From positions 1 to 12,278 of the forward strand of contig CAMKHH010000005.1 in the NCBI GenBank assembly GCA_946412445.1: a DNA stretch of 12,278 nt. Direction: 5' to 3'. Both the position numbers and the translations under genes were made by a program. The stretch comes from an uncultured Eubacterium sp. GTDB lineage: Bacteria; Bacillota; Clostridia; Lachnospirales; Lachnospiraceae. A model generated the notes under the pieces. It was given only the letters and a program-made list of their open reading frames with translations, was not told the DNA's origin and made no database searches. Shown here piece after piece: positions 1 through 6,867 of this stretch; position 1 is the first letter of the stretch, and every line of letters begins with the position of its first letter.

Positions 1-1079
1 TACTGAAGATGCTTTACCGGGAATCTGAGATTCTGATTTTTGATGAGCCAACCGCTGTTTTGACGCCACAGGAAATAGAATCGCTGCTGGAAATCATCCG
101 CTCTTTGAGAGCGGATGGAAAAACGATTCTTCTCATTTCACATAAGCTGGAGGAAATAAAACAAGTGGCAGACCGTTGTGCGATTCTGAATCAGGGAAAG
201 CTGATTGCGGTCAGGGATGTTGCCGATACATCTACAAAAGAGATGGCCAATCTTATGGTGGGGAGAGAGGTTATCTTAAATCTGGCAAAGAAAACACCGG
301 AGTATAAAGATGTGGTGCTGGAAGTAAAAAATCTGACTGTTCATAATGCGGATAAATTCCCGGTTGTCAAAAACGTCAGCTTTTCCATAAGAGGAGGAGA
401 GATATTTGCAATTGCCGGAGTGTCAGGAAACGGGCAGACAGAAATTGCAGATGCCATAGCCGGCATGCTGCCGGCAAAAAAGGGGACAATCATCTTAAAC
501 GGAAAAGATATCACAGATTACAACATTCGAAAAAGAATGATAGATGGTATTTCCTATATACCGGAAGACCGGCATAACTGCGGACTGGTATTGGATTTTA
601 CACTTGCAGAGAATATTGCACTGCGCAGTTATTTTAAAGAGCCATTGTCAAAACAGGGAATCCTGCAAAATAAAAAGATAGACCAATATGGGAAAGAGAT
701 CATTGAATCCTACGATATCAGAAGCGGAAGAGGAACAAAAACGAAAGTCCGATCCATGAGCGGGGGAAACCAGCAGAAAGCAATTATCGGAAGAGAAATC
801 GAATTGCAAAATCCATTGATGATTTTTGTCCAGCCAACCAGAGGTCTGGATATTGGTGCGATTGAAAATATCCAGAAACAGATTTTACAGGAACGTGATT
901 TGGGGAAAGCGGTATTACTGGTATCTCTGGAGCTCGATGAGATTATGGAGCTTGCCGATACCATCGGAGTTGTATATGGTGGAGAAATGTTGAAAATAGC
1001 AGATGCCAGAGCTTTAAGCGCCAACGAAGTCGGAGAATTTATGATGGGGGTAAAAACTCATGAGAAAAGTGAAATATGA
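1..1079 (+). CDS. ABC transporter ATP-binding protein (nucleoside/BMP-type, two NBDs), 5' truncated
   Basis: This is the 3' part of a tandem-NBD ATPase that would power the two permeases downstream; the reading frame is open to the left edge (codons from base 3), so the first Walker A and signature lie outside. Numbering from the Met at base 9: NBD1 shows Walker B ILIFDEPTA (D12, E13) and an H-loop LLISHK (H45). NBD2 has a P-loop-like GVSGNGQT (137-144), signature MSGGNQQK (250-257), and a Walker B where the acidic pair is replaced (MIFVQPTRGLD, Q275); its H-loop reads LVSLELDE with no His. This asymmetric, half-degenerate pattern is normal for the RbsA/YufO/NupO family, so it is not decay. 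The family imports nucleosides or sugars from an extracellular lipoprotein; nucleoside is preferred here because of the permease types and the deaminase downstream. Its stop overlaps the next gene by 20 bp. Family confident, substrate inferred. Confidence 0.9.
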   Translation, partial: LKMLYRESEILIFDEPTAVLTPQEIESLLEIIRSLRADGKTILLISHKLEEIKQVADRCAILNQGKLIAVRDVADTSTKEMANLMVGREVILNLAKKTPEYKDVVLEVKNLTVHNADKFPVVKNVSFSIRGGEIFAIAGVSGNGQTEIADAIAGMLPAKKGTIILNGKDITDYNIRKRMIDGISYIPEDRHNCGLVLDFTLAENIALRSYFKEPLSKQGILQNKKIDQYGKEIIESYDIRSGRGTKTKVRSMSGGNQQKAIIGREIELQNPLMIFVQPTRGLDIGAIENIQKQILQERDLGKAVLLVSLELDEIMELADTIGVVYGGEMLKIADARALSANEVGEFMMGVKTHEKSEI

Positions 1080-2223
1080 AATTAAAAAGGGATTTGTTAA
1101 GCTGTTGGGCAATGAAAAGACTCAATTTATTGCAATCCCTGTTTTTTCCATCATAATCAGCCTGATTGCAGGGTCTGCTGTTATCGCATTAACCGGAGGT
1201 TCGCCGTTTCAAGCTTTTAAAAATCTGCTGCAGGGCTGTGGAATTCTGTCAAAACCCTCTTATGCAGGGTTTAAAAGTCCTCTCACAGACTTTACCAGCT
1301 TCTTAAATGCCATGACTCCGATGCTCTTTGCAGCTTTGGCAGTATCGCTTGCATTGAAGGCTGGATTATTTAATATCGGGGTTTCGGGACAAATGCTGAC
1401 TGCCGGATTCATAGCTTCAATTACGGTAGGGTATGCGGCATCTCTGCCTGCACCGCTTGCGAAACTGCTGGTTCTTTTCATCGGAATTGCAGCCGGTATG
1501 CTGGTGGGCGGATTGATTGGATTTCTAAAGCATAAATTTAATATCAATGAAGTGGTATCCTCCATCATGCTCAATTATATTGCGCAGTATGTCATTGCAT
1601 TTTTCATTAACACAAAATATGTGGATCCGGTATCAAGACAGTCTAAAGAGGTGACAGATGCTTCCAGACTTACGCTGATGGGAACAGCAGTCGGAAATCT
1701 GAAGATTGATATTCCTCTTGGAATTGTACTCGCAGTAATTGCTGCTTTCTTACTGCGCTTTCTGATTCAAAGAACGACTGCAGGCTTTGAAATTAAGGCA
1801 GTGGGGGCCAGTCCGAAGGCGGCGAAGTATGCAGGGATGAACGTGGGGAAAAATATAGTTCTGACCATGATGATTTCAGGGGGATTGGCAGGACTGGCGG
1901 GAGTGACATATTTCCTTGGATATTTTGCATCCATACAGCCCAAAGTATTGCCGTCTACCGGATTCGATGCCATTGCCGTCGCAATTTTAGGAAATGCGAA
2001 TCCGATTGGAAATATCTTTTCCTCCTTCCTGATTACAATTTTAAGTAAGGGAAGCACTTACATGAGTTCTGCCGGAGGAGTACAGGCAGAAATCGCGTCT
2101 GTTATCACTGGAATTATTCTGCTGTGCAGTGCCTGTGGAGTGTTTATAAAGGATTGGGTTGCTAAAATGAAAGAGGAAATTTCAGAAGAGACAAAAGATG
2201 GCCAGAAACAGGAGGTGCACTGA
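1060..2223 (+). CDS. ABC transporter permease, nucleoside type (NupP/YufP-like)
   Basis: A 387-residue hydrophobic protein, one of two membrane subunits of the importer. It has a short basic cytosolic N-terminus (1-20), a first membrane segment at about 23-45, then several further segments. Diagnostic BPD_transp_2 features are FNIGVSGQM (104-112), NEVVSSIMLNYIA (163-175) and a later loop GASPKAAKYAGMNV (about 250-263) that in this family contacts the ATPase. Length fits the larger permease of the family. The start ATG lies 20 bp inside the ATPase gene behind a G-rich stretch (GATGGGGG), and its TGA is two bases before the next ATG, so translational coupling on both sides is likely. Acts in the cytoplasmic membrane as a heterodimer with the following permease. 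Substrate specificity cannot be read directly. Confidence 0.9.
   Translation: MRKVKYEIKKGFVKLLGNEKTQFIAIPVFSIIISLIAGSAVIALTGGSPFQAFKNLLQGCGILSKPSYAGFKSPLTDFTSFLNAMTPMLFAALAVSLALKAGLFNIGVSGQMLTAGFIASITVGYAASLPAPLAKLLVLFIGIAAGMLVGGLIGFLKHKFNINEVVSSIMLNYIAQYVIAFFINTKYVDPVSRQSKEVTDASRLTLMGTAVGNLKIDIPLGIVLAVIAAFLLRFLIQRTTAGFEIKAVGASPKAAKYAGMNVGKNIVLTMMISGGLAGLAGVTYFLGYFASIQPKVLPSTGFDAIAVAILGNANPIGNIFSSFLITILSKGSTYMSSAGGVQAEIASVITGIILLCSACGVFIKDWVAKMKEEISEETKDGQKQEVH
2210..2217 (+). promoter_or_regulatory. Ribosome binding site fixing the start of permease 2
   Basis: AGGAGGTG sits 7 nt before the ATG at 2225. An in-frame ATG at 2198 lies upstream of this site and inside the end of permease 1, so it is very unlikely to be used. 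Confidence 0.85.
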
Positions 2224-2224
2224 T

Positions 2225-3184
2225 ATGAATACAATTATAATTGACGGTCTTTCATTTGCACTGCCTTTGTTTATTATGGCAATTGGAGGAATTTACTGTG
2301 AAAAAAGCGGGATTACGAATCTGGCGCTGGAGGGGCTGCAGGGATTTGGCGCTTTTATCGGTTCCTTATTTGTCGTATTAACTGCTGACATGTTTCAGGC
2401 GGGATCTATGTCCCAGGTATTGCTTGCACTTCTTTTTGCTATGCTGGGAGGCGCGGCATATTCTCTGCTCCATGCAGCGTTGTGTATTAAGTTTAAGGCT
2501 GATCAGACAATCAGTGGTGTGGTGCTGAATATTCTGGCGGCAGCACTTACTACTTTTTTGGTTAAACAGTTAAATCCGATTTTATTCGGGGCACCGTCTG
2601 ATAAATTTCAGCTGGGAGTGTCCACCCGGGTTACAGTTCCGGGACTGGCGAAGATACCGCTTCTGGGAGCCGTCTTTACCAGGCTTTATCCCTTTGAAAT
2701 TGTGATTGTAATTGTGGCCTTTATTGCATGGTTTGTACTTTATAAAACCAGATACGGGCTTCACTTAAGAGCCTGTGGAGATAACCCCCATGCAGTGGAT
2801 GCGGCGGGTATCCGTGTGGGACGGGTCAGACTGGCGGCTGTTTTGGTATCGGGCGCTCTATCAGGAATAGCCGGTATGTGCTTTGCCTATTCAATATCCG
2901 CTAACTTTTCATCCGCGATTTATGTGGGATACGGCTATCTGGCCATAGCGGCCCTGATATTCGGAAACTGGAAGATACTTCCTACATTAGCGGCATGTCT
3001 GATCTTTGGTTTTGCAAAGTCAGGAGGAAACCAGCTGGTATTGATCTTAAAGATGCCCAGTGCCTACTCTGATCTTGTGATGATACTTCCATATATTCTG
3101 ACTCTTGTTTTGCTGATATTCTTCTCAAAACACAACCATGCACCCCGTGCACTTGGAGAAATCTATGATAAAGGAAAACGGTAA
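2225..3184 (+). CDS. ABC transporter permease, nucleoside type (NupQ/YufQ-like)
   Basis: The second membrane subunit, 319 residues from the ATG at 2225 (chosen for its strong ribosome binding site; the longer frame from 2198 would add nine residues, MARNRRCTD, with no matching signal). It starts with a hydrophobic segment (residues 1-23), followed by the family motif KSGITNLALEGLQGFGAF, which corresponds to the usual K-GxxNxxxEGxxxxGAF of BPD_transp_2 permeases. A cytosolic loop RACGDNPHAVDAAGIRV matches the family's RAxGxNPxAAxxxGI coupling loop. The protein ends with hydrophobic segments and a short basic tail. Together with the preceding permease it would form the translocation path for a nucleoside or related ligand. 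It follows the first permease without a gap and is followed after 24 bp by the amidohydrolase, so all belong to one operon. Confidence 0.9.
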   Translation: MNTIIIDGLSFALPLFIMAIGGIYCEKSGITNLALEGLQGFGAFIGSLFVVLTADMFQAGSMSQVLLALLFAMLGGAAYSLLHAALCIKFKADQTISGVVLNILAAALTTFLVKQLNPILFGAPSDKFQLGVSTRVTVPGLAKIPLLGAVFTRLYPFEIVIVIVAFIAWFVLYKTRYGLHLRACGDNPHAVDAAGIRVGRVRLAAVLVSGALSGIAGMCFAYSISANFSSAIYVGYGYLAIAALIFGNWKILPTLAACLIFGFAKSGGNQLVLILKMPSAYSDLVMILPYILTLVLLIFFSKHNHAPRALGEIYDKGKR

Positions 3185-3208
3185 AGGAAAAGGAGGGAAG
3201 GAAAGGCT

Positions 3209-4486
3209 ATGAGCGTAAGATTTCATAACTGTAAACTGCTTACAATGACGGACGGTATTAAAATAGAGGACGGTGAACTCTGGGTGGAAGGAAGCCGCAT
3301 CACCCATGTGGGAGCGGTGAAGGAACAAAGGGACGAAAAGCAGTGGGACAGGGAGCTGGATTGTAAAGGGAATCTTCTGATGCCGGGATTCAAAGATGCC
3401 CACACGCATTCACCAATGACTTTTTTAAGGTCATATGCAGATGACCTTCCACTGCTCTCCTGGCTGAATGATCAGGTATTTCCCATGGAAGCCAAACTGA
3501 CGAAAGAAGATGTCTATTGCTTTTCCAAACTGGCAATTCTGGAATATCTGACAAGTGGAATCACTTCTAACTTTGACATGTATTACTTTACAGAACAGAA
3601 TGTACAGGCTTCTGTGGATACGGGGTTTCGGACGGTACTCACTTCAGGGCTAAATGATTTCCAAAGCTCCATAGAGGAGGTAGAAGCGGAATATCTGACC
3701 TATAACAATTATCATGAAAGAATCAGCTATAAACTGGGGTTCCATGCCGAATACACCACATCCCGGGCATTGCTGGAAAAATTATCGGATCTGGCACACA
3801 AGTATCAGGCACCGGTCTACACGCATAATTCGGAAAGCCTTTCGGAGGTACAGCAATGCATTGCGCGCAATGGCATGACGCCTACGGTATATCTGAACAA
3901 ACTGGGCTTATTTGAATTTGGCGGAGGTGGATTTCACTGTGTTCATATGTCAGAGGAAGATCTGGAGATTTTCAGGGAGAAAGGGTTGTATGTGGTCACT
4001 AATCCAGGCTCCAATGTGAAATTAGCCAGTGGAATTGCACCGCTTGAAAAGATGCTGGAGCTCGGAATCGAACTCGGAATCGGAACGGATGGTCCTGCCA
4101 GCAATAACTGTCTGGATATGTTTCGGGAAATGTTCCTGGCAACGGGGCTTCAGAAGCTGAAATATCAAGATGCGTCCGCATTAAAGGCAGAGTCGGTTTT
4201 ATATATGGCAGTAAGCGGAGGTGCAAAGGCGATGGGACTGACAGAGTGTGACACCTTGGCAGAGGGAAAGCTGGCCGATTTGATTCTGATTGACTTAAAT
4301 CAGCCGAATATGCAGCCTGTAAATAATATAGCAAGAAATATTGTTTACAGCGGCAGCAAAAGCAATGTAAAATTGACAATGGTCAACGGAAGGATTCTTT
4401 ATGAAGATGGAAGATTTGATATAGGAGCAGATCCCGGGGATTTATATAAAGAAGCAAATGACCGGGTGAGCAAAATCAAGGGATAA
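3209..4486 (+). CDS. Amidohydrolase, MTA/SAH/adenosine deaminase-like
   Basis: A 425-residue cytosolic metal-dependent hydrolase of the amidohydrolase superfamily, closest by motif to 5-methylthioadenosine/S-adenosylhomocysteine deaminases (MtaD) and related aminopurine deaminases. Metal ligands visible: H65 and H67 in DAHTHS, H206 in THNSES with E209 as the likely proton-shuttle glutamate, the HCVH group (243-246), and D294 in GTDGPASNN. The substrate-loop HAxYT motif appears as HAEYTTS (179-185). The C-terminal ADLILIDL (356-363) belongs to the small beta-sandwich domain. The start at 3209 follows AGGAGG at 3191-3196; spacing is somewhat long (12 nt), with GGAAAGG closer. Sitting last in a nucleoside-transport operon, it probably deaminates an imported adenosine-type nucleoside or derivative. 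Guanine or cytosine deaminase is less likely; the exact substrate is not decidable from sequence. Confidence 0.85.
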   Translation: MSVRFHNCKLLTMTDGIKIEDGELWVEGSRITHVGAVKEQRDEKQWDRELDCKGNLLMPGFKDAHTHSPMTFLRSYADDLPLLSWLNDQVFPMEAKLTKEDVYCFSKLAILEYLTSGITSNFDMYYFTEQNVQASVDTGFRTVLTSGLNDFQSSIEEVEAEYLTYNNYHERISYKLGFHAEYTTSRALLEKLSDLAHKYQAPVYTHNSESLSEVQQCIARNGMTPTVYLNKLGLFEFGGGGFHCVHMSEEDLEIFREKGLYVVTNPGSNVKLASGIAPLEKMLELGIELGIGTDGPASNNCLDMFREMFLATGLQKLKYQDASALKAESVLYMAVSGGAKAMGLTECDTLAEGKLADLILIDLNQPNMQPVNNIARNIVYSGSKSNVKLTMVNGRILYEDGRFDIGADPGDLYKEANDRVSKIKG

Positions 4487-4571: not shown

Positions 4572-4609
4572 ATAAAAATCCGGTCGACCAAACTTGCCCG
4601 GATTTTTAT
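4572..4609. terminator. Hairpin, likely bidirectional terminator or leader stem-loop
   Basis: A perfect 12-bp stem (ATAAAAATCCGG at 4572-4583 with its complement at 4598-4609) encloses a 14-nt loop. CCGG at the top with five T after it (five A on the left arm) gives a Rho-independent terminator shape in both directions. It probably ends the nucleoside operon, whose stop is at 4486. However, the promoter at 4533-4561 lies upstream of it, so the hairpin would also open the leader of the DUF1538 message almost at its 5' end. Confidence 0.6.
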
Positions 4610-4636: not shown

Positions 4637-4654
4637 ATGCACAGAAATGTGTAA
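4637..4654 (+). CDS. Possible five-codon leader peptide (MHRNV)
   Basis: AAGGGAGG at 4625-4632 is the only good ribosome binding site between the promoter and the DUF1538 gene. It is correctly placed (4 nt after the GGAGG core) not for that gene but for ATG 4637, which opens a five-codon frame encoding MHRNV and stopping at 4652-4654. A second tiny frame, ATG ATC TTA TGA (4658-4669), overlaps the DUF1538 start by ATGA. This could be a leader peptide with reinitiation at 4666. It could equally be coincidence or a sequence error that hides the true start. Confidence 0.3.
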   Translation: MHRNV

Positions 4655-4665
4655 ACTATGATCTT

Positions 4666-6237
4666 ATGAAGACAATTCGTACATTAAAAGAAACCTTTGT
4701 ATCCTCATTACCCCTCGCTGCCGTTATGATTGTGATGTGTGTGTTTGTTTCACCCATGGAAGATGCATTTAACTATGTGAAATTACTTATCGGATATGTA
4801 TCTGTTGTAGTGGGGCAATCATTATTTCTGGTGGGGCTGGATGAAAGTATTCTGCCTATTGGTAAACTGGTGGGAAACTCTCTGGTAAAACTTAAGAAGA
4901 CTGTTTTTATTATCACCTTCGGATTATTGTTCGGTCTGCTCTCAACGGTGGCTGAGCCGGCTCTGGCGGTTCTGGCAAGGCAAACCCATATGTTGATGGA
5001 TATTGTTGATGTTACTACGTTTATTTGGATTATGAGCGTAGGGATCGGTGTATTCGTCGGATTTGCATTGTTCCGCATTCTAAAGAATATCAATATTAAA
5101 ATCGTATTTGCTGTATTGTATATTGTAATATTCCTGACTGCAATTTTTGTACCGGAAGAATTTATAGCTCTGGCGTTTGATGGCAGCGGAGCCACCACGG
5201 GCGATATTTCGGTACCCTTTATACTGGTTCTTGGTATGGGGGCATCCACGACGATGTCAAAGAGCAAAACAACCGATGACACGTTTGGCATTATCGGAAT
5301 GGCATCAGTCGGACCGATTTTGGCAGTATTTATCTATGGAATTCTGTTAAAAATCAAAAACGGCGGAGTAGTTCCCCAGGCAAATGCCTATATGCCGGAA
5401 ACGACGGAAACGCTGAGAAGCATTCTTCTGGGAAACTTATGGGATGTGGCTTTTGCGATTCTTCCAATTGTTCTGGTCTTTCTGGTGTTCCAGTTTATAC
5501 TGATTAAGCTTCCGGCAAAAGAACTCATCCGGATACTGATGGGGACGATTCCTGTTTATTTCGGGCTTTTAATCTTTCTATCGGGAATTGACTATGGGTT
5601 TGCCTACGCAGCTAAGTATATCGGTGAAATTTTCTTCGATCCGTCACGTCCGGGCTGGTATAAGTGGCTGCTGTTAGTGATTGGATTTATTCTGGGTGTC
5701 GCTATTACGCTGTCAGAGCCGGCGGTTACGGTGCTGGGAGACCAGGTGGATGAAATTACCAAAGGGCACATCAAGAAATCCACCATACGGACAACGCTGG
5801 CTATTGGAATTGGATTTGCCGCCTTGCTGAGCATGCTTAAAATCCTTACACAAATCAACATCCTTTACTTTTTGATACCGCTTTATGCAGTGGCAATTAT
5901 CCTGATGAAATTTGCACCGAAGCTCTTTGTAGGGCTTGCATTTGATTCGGGAGGTGTTACCGGCGGGGCGCTTACATCCGCGTTTCTCACCCCCCTGACC
6001 CTTGGTGTTGCACAGGCAGTCGCAGCCACGGCAGGTTCCAGGGCACAGTCTGTTTTAACCAATGGATTTGGTATAATTGCTTTTATTTCAGTTACGCCCT
6101 TGATTGCTGTGCAGATTTTAGGTATTATATATGAAGTACGACTGAAAAAGATTAGAAGGGAAACAGTGGAAGAAGAAGTTATGGATCTGGAAAATTTATT
6201 GGCTGATGATGCGGAGGATGTAGAGTATGAACGGTGA
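4666..6237 (+). CDS. DUF1538 family membrane protein, two tandem repeats (possible cation/proton antiporter)
   Basis: A 523-residue polytopic membrane protein with two copies of the DUF1538 domain. Repeat 1 (about 1-230) carries VAEPALAVLA (95-104), FDGSGATTGDIS (171-182) and FGIIGMASVGPILAV (207-221). Repeat 2 (about 280-495) carries the matching LSEPAVTVLGDQ (349-360), FDSGGVTGGALTS (426-438) and FGIIAFISVTPLIAV (468-482). The paired EPA and FDxxGxTxG motifs within membrane segments look like the working elements of an inverted or duplicated transporter fold. From memory, DUF1538 pairs (UmpAB in Halomonas) have been reported as Na+(K+)/H+ antiporters; function here is inferred from that. 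The C-terminal tail (499-523) is cytosolic and strongly acidic. The ATG at 4666 has no ribosome binding site of its own, and no upstream in-frame start exists. It overlaps the next gene by 11 bp. Confidence 0.85.
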   Translation: MKTIRTLKETFVSSLPLAAVMIVMCVFVSPMEDAFNYVKLLIGYVSVVVGQSLFLVGLDESILPIGKLVGNSLVKLKKTVFIITFGLLFGLLSTVAEPALAVLARQTHMLMDIVDVTTFIWIMSVGIGVFVGFALFRILKNINIKIVFAVLYIVIFLTAIFVPEEFIALAFDGSGATTGDISVPFILVLGMGASTTMSKSKTTDDTFGIIGMASVGPILAVFIYGILLKIKNGGVVPQANAYMPETTETLRSILLGNLWDVAFAILPIVLVFLVFQFILIKLPAKELIRILMGTIPVYFGLLIFLSGIDYGFAYAAKYIGEIFFDPSRPGWYKWLLLVIGFILGVAITLSEPAVTVLGDQVDEITKGHIKKSTIRTTLAIGIGFAALLSMLKILTQINILYFLIPLYAVAIILMKFAPKLFVGLAFDSGGVTGGALTSAFLTPLTLGVAQAVAATAGSRAQSVLTNGFGIIAFISVTPLIAVQILGIIYEVRLKKIRRETVEEEVMDLENLLADDAEDVEYER

Positions 6238-6547
6238 TAAACGAAAGAATATTGTCTATCTTATTCTGATTGCGGGGAGGAAGCTGCAAAGTTCTCTGCT
6301 TGATTTTCTTTCGGATGAAGATGCAAAAGTAGTTCATATCCTATATGGAAAGGGTGCGGCATCGGCCAAACCTTCTCTGGTGGAGGCATTCGGGTTTACG
6401 CCCGAAGAAAATAAGGTAATTATAACCTGTGTTCTTACAAGGGAAAAAGCCGATAATGTGCTGGGACTGCTTGTGAGAAAATATAAGTTTGATAAGCCAA
6501 ATACTGGAATCGCGTTTACTATAAGTGTAGACGGGTTATCATTTTAA
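6227..6547 (+). CDS. PII-like (GlnB-fold) protein, first of two
   Basis: A 106-residue soluble protein with the beta-alpha-beta layout of PII signalling proteins: first strand IVYLILIAG (9-17), a helix, a T-loop-like stretch YGKGAASAKPSLVEAFGF (40-57), strand NKVIITCVL (62-70), helix TREKADNVLGLLVRKY (71-86) and the closing NTGIAFTISVDG (92-103), which sits where classical PII has its ligand-binding C-terminal strand. Classical trimeric PII proteins bind ATP/ADP and 2-oxoglutarate and block partner proteins through the T-loop. The classical uridylylation motif is not present, so modification by GlnD is unlikely. The ATG at 6227 follows CGGAGG (6212-6217) inside the 3' end of the DUF1538 gene, so the two are translated together. 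It probably senses a nucleotide and controls the membrane protein; that link is inference from context. Confidence 0.75.
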   Translation: MNGDKRKNIVYLILIAGRKLQSSLLDFLSDEDAKVVHILYGKGAASAKPSLVEAFGFTPEENKVIITCVLTREKADNVLGLLVRKYKFDKPNTGIAFTISVDGLSF

Positions 6548-6551
6548 TGGT

Positions 6552-6556
6552 GGAGG
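6552..6556 (+). promoter_or_regulatory. Ribosome binding site fixing the start of the second PII-like gene
   Basis: GGAGG lies 8 nt before ATG 6565. The in-frame ATG at 6547 overlaps the previous stop as TAATG but precedes this site, so 6565 is the better start. Confidence 0.75.
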
Positions 6557-6564
6557 AAAAAGTA

Positions 6565-6867
6565 ATGAAGAATAAAAAAGCCCTCTTTATTGTAGTGAAC
6601 AGCGGCTTTGCTGAGGAGATTACTGATATTATCCATGAACAGGGTGCGTGCGGGGCCACGATACTGAATGCCCGTGGGGTAGGACTCAATGTGGAAAAGA
6701 TTATGGGTATTACTGTAGGTTATGAAAGAGAGATGGTTCTCAGTATCGTTGACGAAGAGGTAGCTGAGGGAATTATGGCGGCTGTTAAAGAAAAGTCGGG
6801 GATCAAGTCTCCGGCTCATGGAATATGTATGATACTTCCTGTGGACAAGATGATAGAGACTGTTTAG
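6565..6867 (+). CDS. PII-like (GlnB-fold) protein, second of two
   Basis: A 100-residue protein from ATG 6565; starting at 6547 would add six residues (MVEEKV). Order of elements: first strand KALFIVVNSG (5-14), helix AEEITDIIHEQG (16-27), then GATILNARG (30-38), which matches the GARGATIxxARG pattern common in PII-family proteins found beside membrane proteins. A T-loop region follows (39-52), then strand EREMVLSIV (54-62), helix DEEVAEGIMAAVKEK (63-77) and the last strand GICMILPVD (86-94). It differs clearly from the first PII-like protein in length, T-loop and N-terminus, so it is not a recent duplicate. The two may form separate trimers or mixed ones. The gene closes a tight three-gene unit with DUF1538; no terminator is seen directly after it. 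Role in gating or stabilising the membrane protein is inferred. Confidence 0.8.
   Translation: MKNKKALFIVVNSGFAEEITDIIHEQGACGATILNARGVGLNVEKIMGITVGYEREMVLSIVDEEVAEGIMAAVKEKSGIKSPAHGICMILPVDKMIETV

Follow-up and report, generated by a model that had tools for sequence, protein, structure and literature searches.

What do two dissimilar PII-like proteins do directly behind one duplicated membrane protein? The question is raised by a three-gene locus of an uncultured Eubacterium sp. from the Lachnospiraceae (assembly GCA_946412445.1, contig CAMKHH010000005.1), in which a DUF1538 protein is followed by two small genes of the PII type. The stretch of DNA analysed here, hereafter the window, is 12,278 nucleotides (nt) long and represents one entire contig of a draft genome with a completeness of 58.65%. 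The genes in question are:

4666-6237, + strand: DUF1538 membrane protein, 523 residues; open reading frame matching PF07556 with 395 bits (cut-off 22.6) in two stretches
6227-6547, + strand: PII-like 1, 106 residues, the anchored type; recognised by a family profile and by the fold of a relative
6565-6867, + strand: PII-like 2, 100 residues; Pfam P-II 26.8 bits (cut-off 25)

An earlier note, made from the sequence alone, had described a duplicated DUF1538 gene in a tight operon with two PII-like genes. The open reading frames confirm the coordinates of this operon, with an overlap of 11 nt between the first two genes and a gap of 17 nt between the PII-like genes, and the two PF07556 stretches bear out the duplication. 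The answer that we favour, and hold to be fairly probable, is that the module is a self-contained PII-gated monovalent cation/proton antiporter equipped with two specialised cytosolic PII-like subunits.

Conservation and architectures of the module

A survey of DUF1538 neighbourhoods for PII-like genes, as the earlier note had proposed, found the association conserved in 59/59 loci from the family sample, 78/80 from a genome collection and 90/93 from the phylum sample, counts that are not independent of the seeds of the custom hidden Markov models (p1 and p2), which were family members. At the level of whole genomes, PF07556 matches occurred in 61 of the 200 family genomes, and 58 DUF1538 genomes were left once G015, G184 and G200, with fragments only or matches near the cut-off, had been excluded. 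The same 58 genomes carry a strong PII-like 2 match (E < 1e-20), and none carries either one alone (Fisher p 8e-52, a value overstated because related genomes are not independent). Six more family genomes gave weak PII-like 2 matches (5e-10 to 4e-6), which we assumed to be other PII proteins. This search used a 30-row alignment taken mostly from genome-collection loci, some of them species of the family genomes. Together with the gene fusions described below (L116 and L299), such co-occurrence strongly supports the view that the PII-like proteins are partners of the DUF1538 transporter in a conserved unit.

The family set comprised 66 DUF1538 loci, two of which (L112 and L113) came from a genus search; eight broken, truncated or spurious loci were excluded and the window was added, giving 59. 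PII-like 1 and then PII-like 2 follow DUF1538 in every retained locus. Both PII-like domains form one protein in 54 of them and are split in five (L056, L106, L107, L113 and the window), which makes the split form seen in the window the rarer version of a widespread module. Among the excluded loci, both PII-like domains are present in L079, L085 and L105 and neither in L108, L110 and L111; L066, with the DUF1538 C-half at the contig start and no PII-like gene in the next 4.1 kb, is a real miss. A decayed module is found in L109 (G200:C6), where an N-terminal DUF1538 fragment leads directly into what is left of PII-like 2 (25 residues, 23 bits), as if DUF1538 and PII-like 2 had been lost together.

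Scanning the genome collection with a single protein query gave no match, and an alignment query gave 579 candidates. Among the best 80 of these, which share some species with the family loci so that the counts overlap, 78 have both PII-like domains in the order 1 then 2. The two misses (L133 and L136) have sequences that stop at contig ends, and the PII-like 1 match of L139 is weak (17 bits). Judging by record titles, these loci are mostly from Clostridia, with two from Treponema, one from Erysipelotrichaceae and one from Enterococcus.

PF07556 matches were found in 135 of the 398 phylum-sample genomes, and 93 loci were read from the best-scoring matches, which is not a random draw; at least one PII-like domain is present in 90 of the 93. 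Fused DUF1538 proteins account for 44 loci: two PII-like domains accompany 42 of them (with broken frames in L278 and L281), a single one accompanies none, and two have no PII-like domain. In one of the latter (L214) just 34 nt of sequence follow DUF1538; the other (L261), an intact fused gene with no detectable PII-like gene within 2.4 kb, is a true exception. Separate UmpA and UmpB genes are followed by one PII-like domain in 18/93 loci and by two in 25/93; among the former, only 273 nt follow in L284, which leaves room for a missed second domain. In 5/93 loci (L251, L266, L276, L293 and L295), a lone one-repeat DUF1538 gene is accompanied by a single PII-like gene, and one locus (L286) is cut. 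On the minus strand of L268, a unit of one one-repeat DUF1538 and one PII-like gene directly adjoins a fused unit with two PII-like domains.

Outside these samples, alphaproteobacterial plasmids of Methylocystis and Chelativorans carry two DUF1538 genes, the first of which is annotated at just 90 residues in Chelativorans, and one gene annotated as 'P-II family nitrogen regulator'. The pairing was therefore already visible, since the NCBI annotation gives such neighbours this very name. In the library searched, where DUF1538 is mentioned in five papers, we found no publication joining DUF1538 or UmpAB with PII, subscription papers lying outside the coverage. The closeness with which the two PII-like proteins accompany DUF1538 from genome to genome suggests a widespread, apparently undescribed way of gating salt or proton transport in bacteria. 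A viral scan also returned one DUF1538 locus, and DUF1538 is found in unannotated phage-labelled records (MT835770, MT835548, which is marked UNVERIFIED, MT837261, MT839021 and short Listeria phage LM records) that possibly represent host DNA.

Natural fusions and the identity of the PII-like proteins

In Scatolibacter rhodanostii (L116), PII-like 1 is in frame with DUF1538 as part of one continuous protein, and neither an in-frame ATG nor a GGAGG lies between the last helix and the PII-like 1 domain. A second genome (L299, 75% identical to L116) has the same fusion. A relative with E no higher than 1e-120 is present in eight of the 391 class-sample genomes, and besides L299 the other seven, including the window, are unfused; in ten window-like genome-collection loci (53-71% identical) the PII-like domains never form one protein. 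The fusions lend indirect support to a physical complex. The length of the DUF1538 tail varies widely within the window's subfamily, and L306 carries a low-complexity charged C-terminal tail of ~100 residues between the last DUF1538 helix and PII-like 1.

That both small proteins are PII-like, as the earlier note had held, stands on the fold of relatives and on profile matches, and PII-like 2 also passes the Pfam threshold. The claim falls short on one point: PII-like 1 scores 13.7 bits on Pfam P-II, under the cut-off of 25, and it was for this reason assigned to PII by its family profile and by the domain fold of a relative. The family profiles of both proteins match solved PII sequences. The closest solved sequence to both is PDB 9p1x, possibly a system of the NifI1/NifI2 type; it contains two PII sequences, in 12 and 6 chains, and is thus a solved entry that likewise holds two different PII proteins. 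A PII-type ferredoxin-like fold was found, the folds compared being those of the relatives L131 and L116 rather than of the window's own small proteins. For the PII-like 1 domain of L116, the top fold matches were PII-like CPII, SbtB and PotN; in the structure alignment, the aligner misplaced the first 12-14 residues of thirty PII-like 1 rows. In a tree of PII-like domains, the PII-like 1 sequences of the fused lineage form a single clade (24/24, support 0.90).

The motifs of classic PII proteins (GlnB/GlnK) are the GDGK of the B-loop, the RTG of the C-loop and the YRG of the T-loop. In the alignment, both window proteins and the domains of 18 relatives are devoid of each of these, and the genome's own classic PII, aligned alongside, carries all three. 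The alignment thus indicates that the classic ATP-site residues are lost from both PII-like proteins. GlnK is a classic PII with the ATP residues and a Y-bearing T-loop, and differs in this from the window proteins, which lack both.

Topology of DUF1538 and a possible gate

UmpAB from Halomonas zhaodongensis is a DUF1538 pair reported to act in E. coli as a heterodimer with Na+(Li+,K+)/H+ antiport activity (PMC5484666), in line with the antiport that the earlier note had ascribed to one DUF1538 pair. The window protein resembles it in that both repeats are DUF1538, the N half being like UmpA (187 bits) and the C half like UmpB (143 bits). It differs in being fused, in having two PII-like partners and in failing the curated equivalog cut-offs (NCBIfam NF041627/NF041628, 490 and 500 bits). 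We do not claim for it the status of an UmpAB equivalog, and consider it possible that it works like UmpAB.

The window protein is predicted to be of the fused UmpA-UmpB type, with 7+7 transmembrane helices and both termini in the cytosol; the helices were taken from a model of the relative L116, complemented by the charge pattern. Cytosolic termini are what a PII-like fusion requires. A fold search with L116 gave no match for the membrane part, the match lists being filled by the PII domain. Profile A1 matched none of the PDB sequences up to an E of 1. Loops were assigned to one or the other side of the membrane by the charge profile of an alignment of 50 DUF1538 rows. On this basis, K+R counts orient separate UmpA as N-in/C-out in 41/41 cases and separate UmpB as N-out/C-in in 38/41, counts that are partly circular, as the 50/50 for the fused form is entirely, because the loop sides come from the same charge profile. 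The loop charges suggest that the DUF1538 repeats are antiparallel. The five lone one-repeat proteins have no charge bias (means of 4.0 vs 5.0 on one reference and 5.2 vs 5.6 on the other; n=5). This is the pattern expected of a dual-topology family, for which these five proteins are candidates.

Keeping this topology in mind, we might picture the module as follows. The DUF1538 protein would be a fused UmpA-UmpB pair whose two seven-helix halves lie antiparallel, and on its cytosolic side PII-like 1 and PII-like 2 would form a mixed assembly. The subunit tethered near the transporter C-terminus would be PII-like 1, and PII-like 2, which is nearer to ordinary PII, would respond to a small ligand, probably a nucleotide. 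Loops at the T-loop position would then lock or free the carrier. Antiparallel halves would offer the two PII-like proteins no equivalent faces to bind, and a mixed assembly of a tethered PII-like 1 and a sensing PII-like 2 is the simplest fit. We infer the complex, the roles of its subunits, its ligand and ion, the antiparallel halves (from the charges) and a mainly inhibitory direction of control. UmpAB was active in E. coli from a fragment with no reported PII gene, and a cognate PII hence seems dispensable for activity; neither PII nor P-II occurs in the text of that paper (PMC5484666). A review presents GlnK-AmtB and SbtB-SbtA as precedents for transporter inhibition. Taken together, these points would make PII control inhibitory or tuning.

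The likeness to these precedents goes only so far. In SbtB-SbtA, according to the same review, a small PII-like protein also acts on a membrane carrier, and SbtB is among the closest folds to the L116 domain; the transporter, however, belongs to another family, and SbtA and SbtB are both trimeric, whereas the window combines DUF1538 with two dissimilar PII-like proteins. GlnK-AmtB shares the linkage of a PII gene to a transporter gene, but AmtB is described there as a trimeric ammonium transporter.

Of the three arrangements suggested in the earlier note, a mixed trimer and two different signals are both possible; the third was one sensor per repeat, with PII-like 1 on one DUF1538 repeat and PII-like 2 on the equivalent surface of the other. 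The numbers invite such an idea: the fused two-repeat protein has two PII-like domains in 42/44 phylum-sample loci and never one, the five lone one-repeat proteins have one, and L268 places both arrangements side by side. Yet the loop charges of UmpA (41/41) and UmpB (38/41) put the equivalent surfaces on opposite sides of the membrane, and a single PII-like domain serves a separate UmpA+UmpB pair in 18/93 loci, which makes this arrangement quite improbable. Another scenario would turn the PII-like proteins into a hub, mainly a sensor or adaptor for other cytosolic targets, with the transporter as a membrane anchor and not a gate. Co-occurrence and tethering are silent on the direction of control, and GlnK sequestration by AmtB, as worded in the title of a reference, is a precedent. 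We nevertheless give a hub little credence, as no further partner is conserved close to the genes: the most frequent cluster of other neighbours, which was joined by single linkage and resembles ABC proteins, occurs in 13/59 family loci and the remainder in 3 or fewer. Distant targets would still be compatible with it.

A further alternative keeps the gating and changes the cargo, the window's subfamily transporting a substrate other than Na+/K+ and H+; it is therefore compatible with the gating part of the reading that we prefer. It draws on the window protein lying far under the UmpA and UmpB cut-offs and on its identity of 34-38% to 17 more distant members, compared with 68% to L107. Nevertheless, F171-D172, G175, E97-P98 and E351-P352 are among the columns invariant across 19 DUF1538 sequences, and the one member whose transport has been measured works as a Na+(Li+,K+)/H+ antiporter, so we regard another substrate as unlikely.

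Returning to the gated antiporter, it is tempting to suppose that DUF1538 is a dual-topology family that passed from stand-alone proteins through the UmpA/UmpB pair to a fused inverted repeat, and that a dedicated PII-like regulator co-evolved with it. In the fused lineage, the anchored and the sensing PII-like subunits, both permanently specialised, would act as a hetero-PII gate on an antiporter that is dimeric and antiparallel. We put this broader scenario forward tentatively, as possible rather than probable. If true, it would describe a PII mechanism that departs from the 3:3 symmetry seen in GlnK-AmtB and SbtB-SbtA and is tuned to some ligand outside the classic ATP/2-oxoglutarate pair. 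DUF1538 is frequent in the Bacillota, the phylum of the window, and the sole characterised pair that we found was studied without a PII partner. If the gated antiporter holds true, PII-type signalling would extend in many bacteria to the homeostasis of pH or salt, and the review's remark that the transporters on which PII acts can be trimers would need an exception. To test it, the natural fusion and the tandem PII in one protein are ready constructs.

Expression signals and neighbouring genes

All three window genes look real and under purifying selection when compared with the same-genus copy L113, the ratio of nonsynonymous to synonymous substitution rates (dN/dS) being ~0.05 for DUF1538, ~0.10 for PII-like 1 and ~0.06 for PII-like 2. 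Read from the sequence, the likely ribosome-binding sites of the small genes are:

6213-6217, + strand: GGAGG within the DUF1538 gene, likely ribosome-binding site of PII-like 1
6552-6556, + strand: GGAGG, likely ribosome-binding site of PII-like 2

An alternative ATG at 6547 would extend PII-like 2 by six residues (106 in total); we preferred the start at 6565 because of the GGAGG at 6552-6556. The DUF1538 ATG at 4666 has no clear ribosome-binding site of its own. It is preceded by a perfect 12-bp hairpin (arms 4572-4583 and 4598-4609), and the ribosome-binding site after this hairpin serves a five-codon open reading frame (ATG at 4637, TAA ending at 4654). The hairpin was considered as a leader riboswitch or attenuator and rejected, as no Rfam family reached its gathering score (the best, ncr1575, had 25.6 vs 60 bits). 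Among 306 loci, only six carry the exact hairpin, each of them spanning either the window or its same-genus copy G002, and the hairpins of L118 differ from it.

Further upstream (3-4486), the gene of an ABC transporter ATPase, truncated at the contig end, is accompanied by genes for two BPD_transp_2 permeases and for an amidohydrolase, whose nearest models are of the deaminase type, with scores below their cut-offs. Overall, this upstream group looks like nucleoside scavenging.
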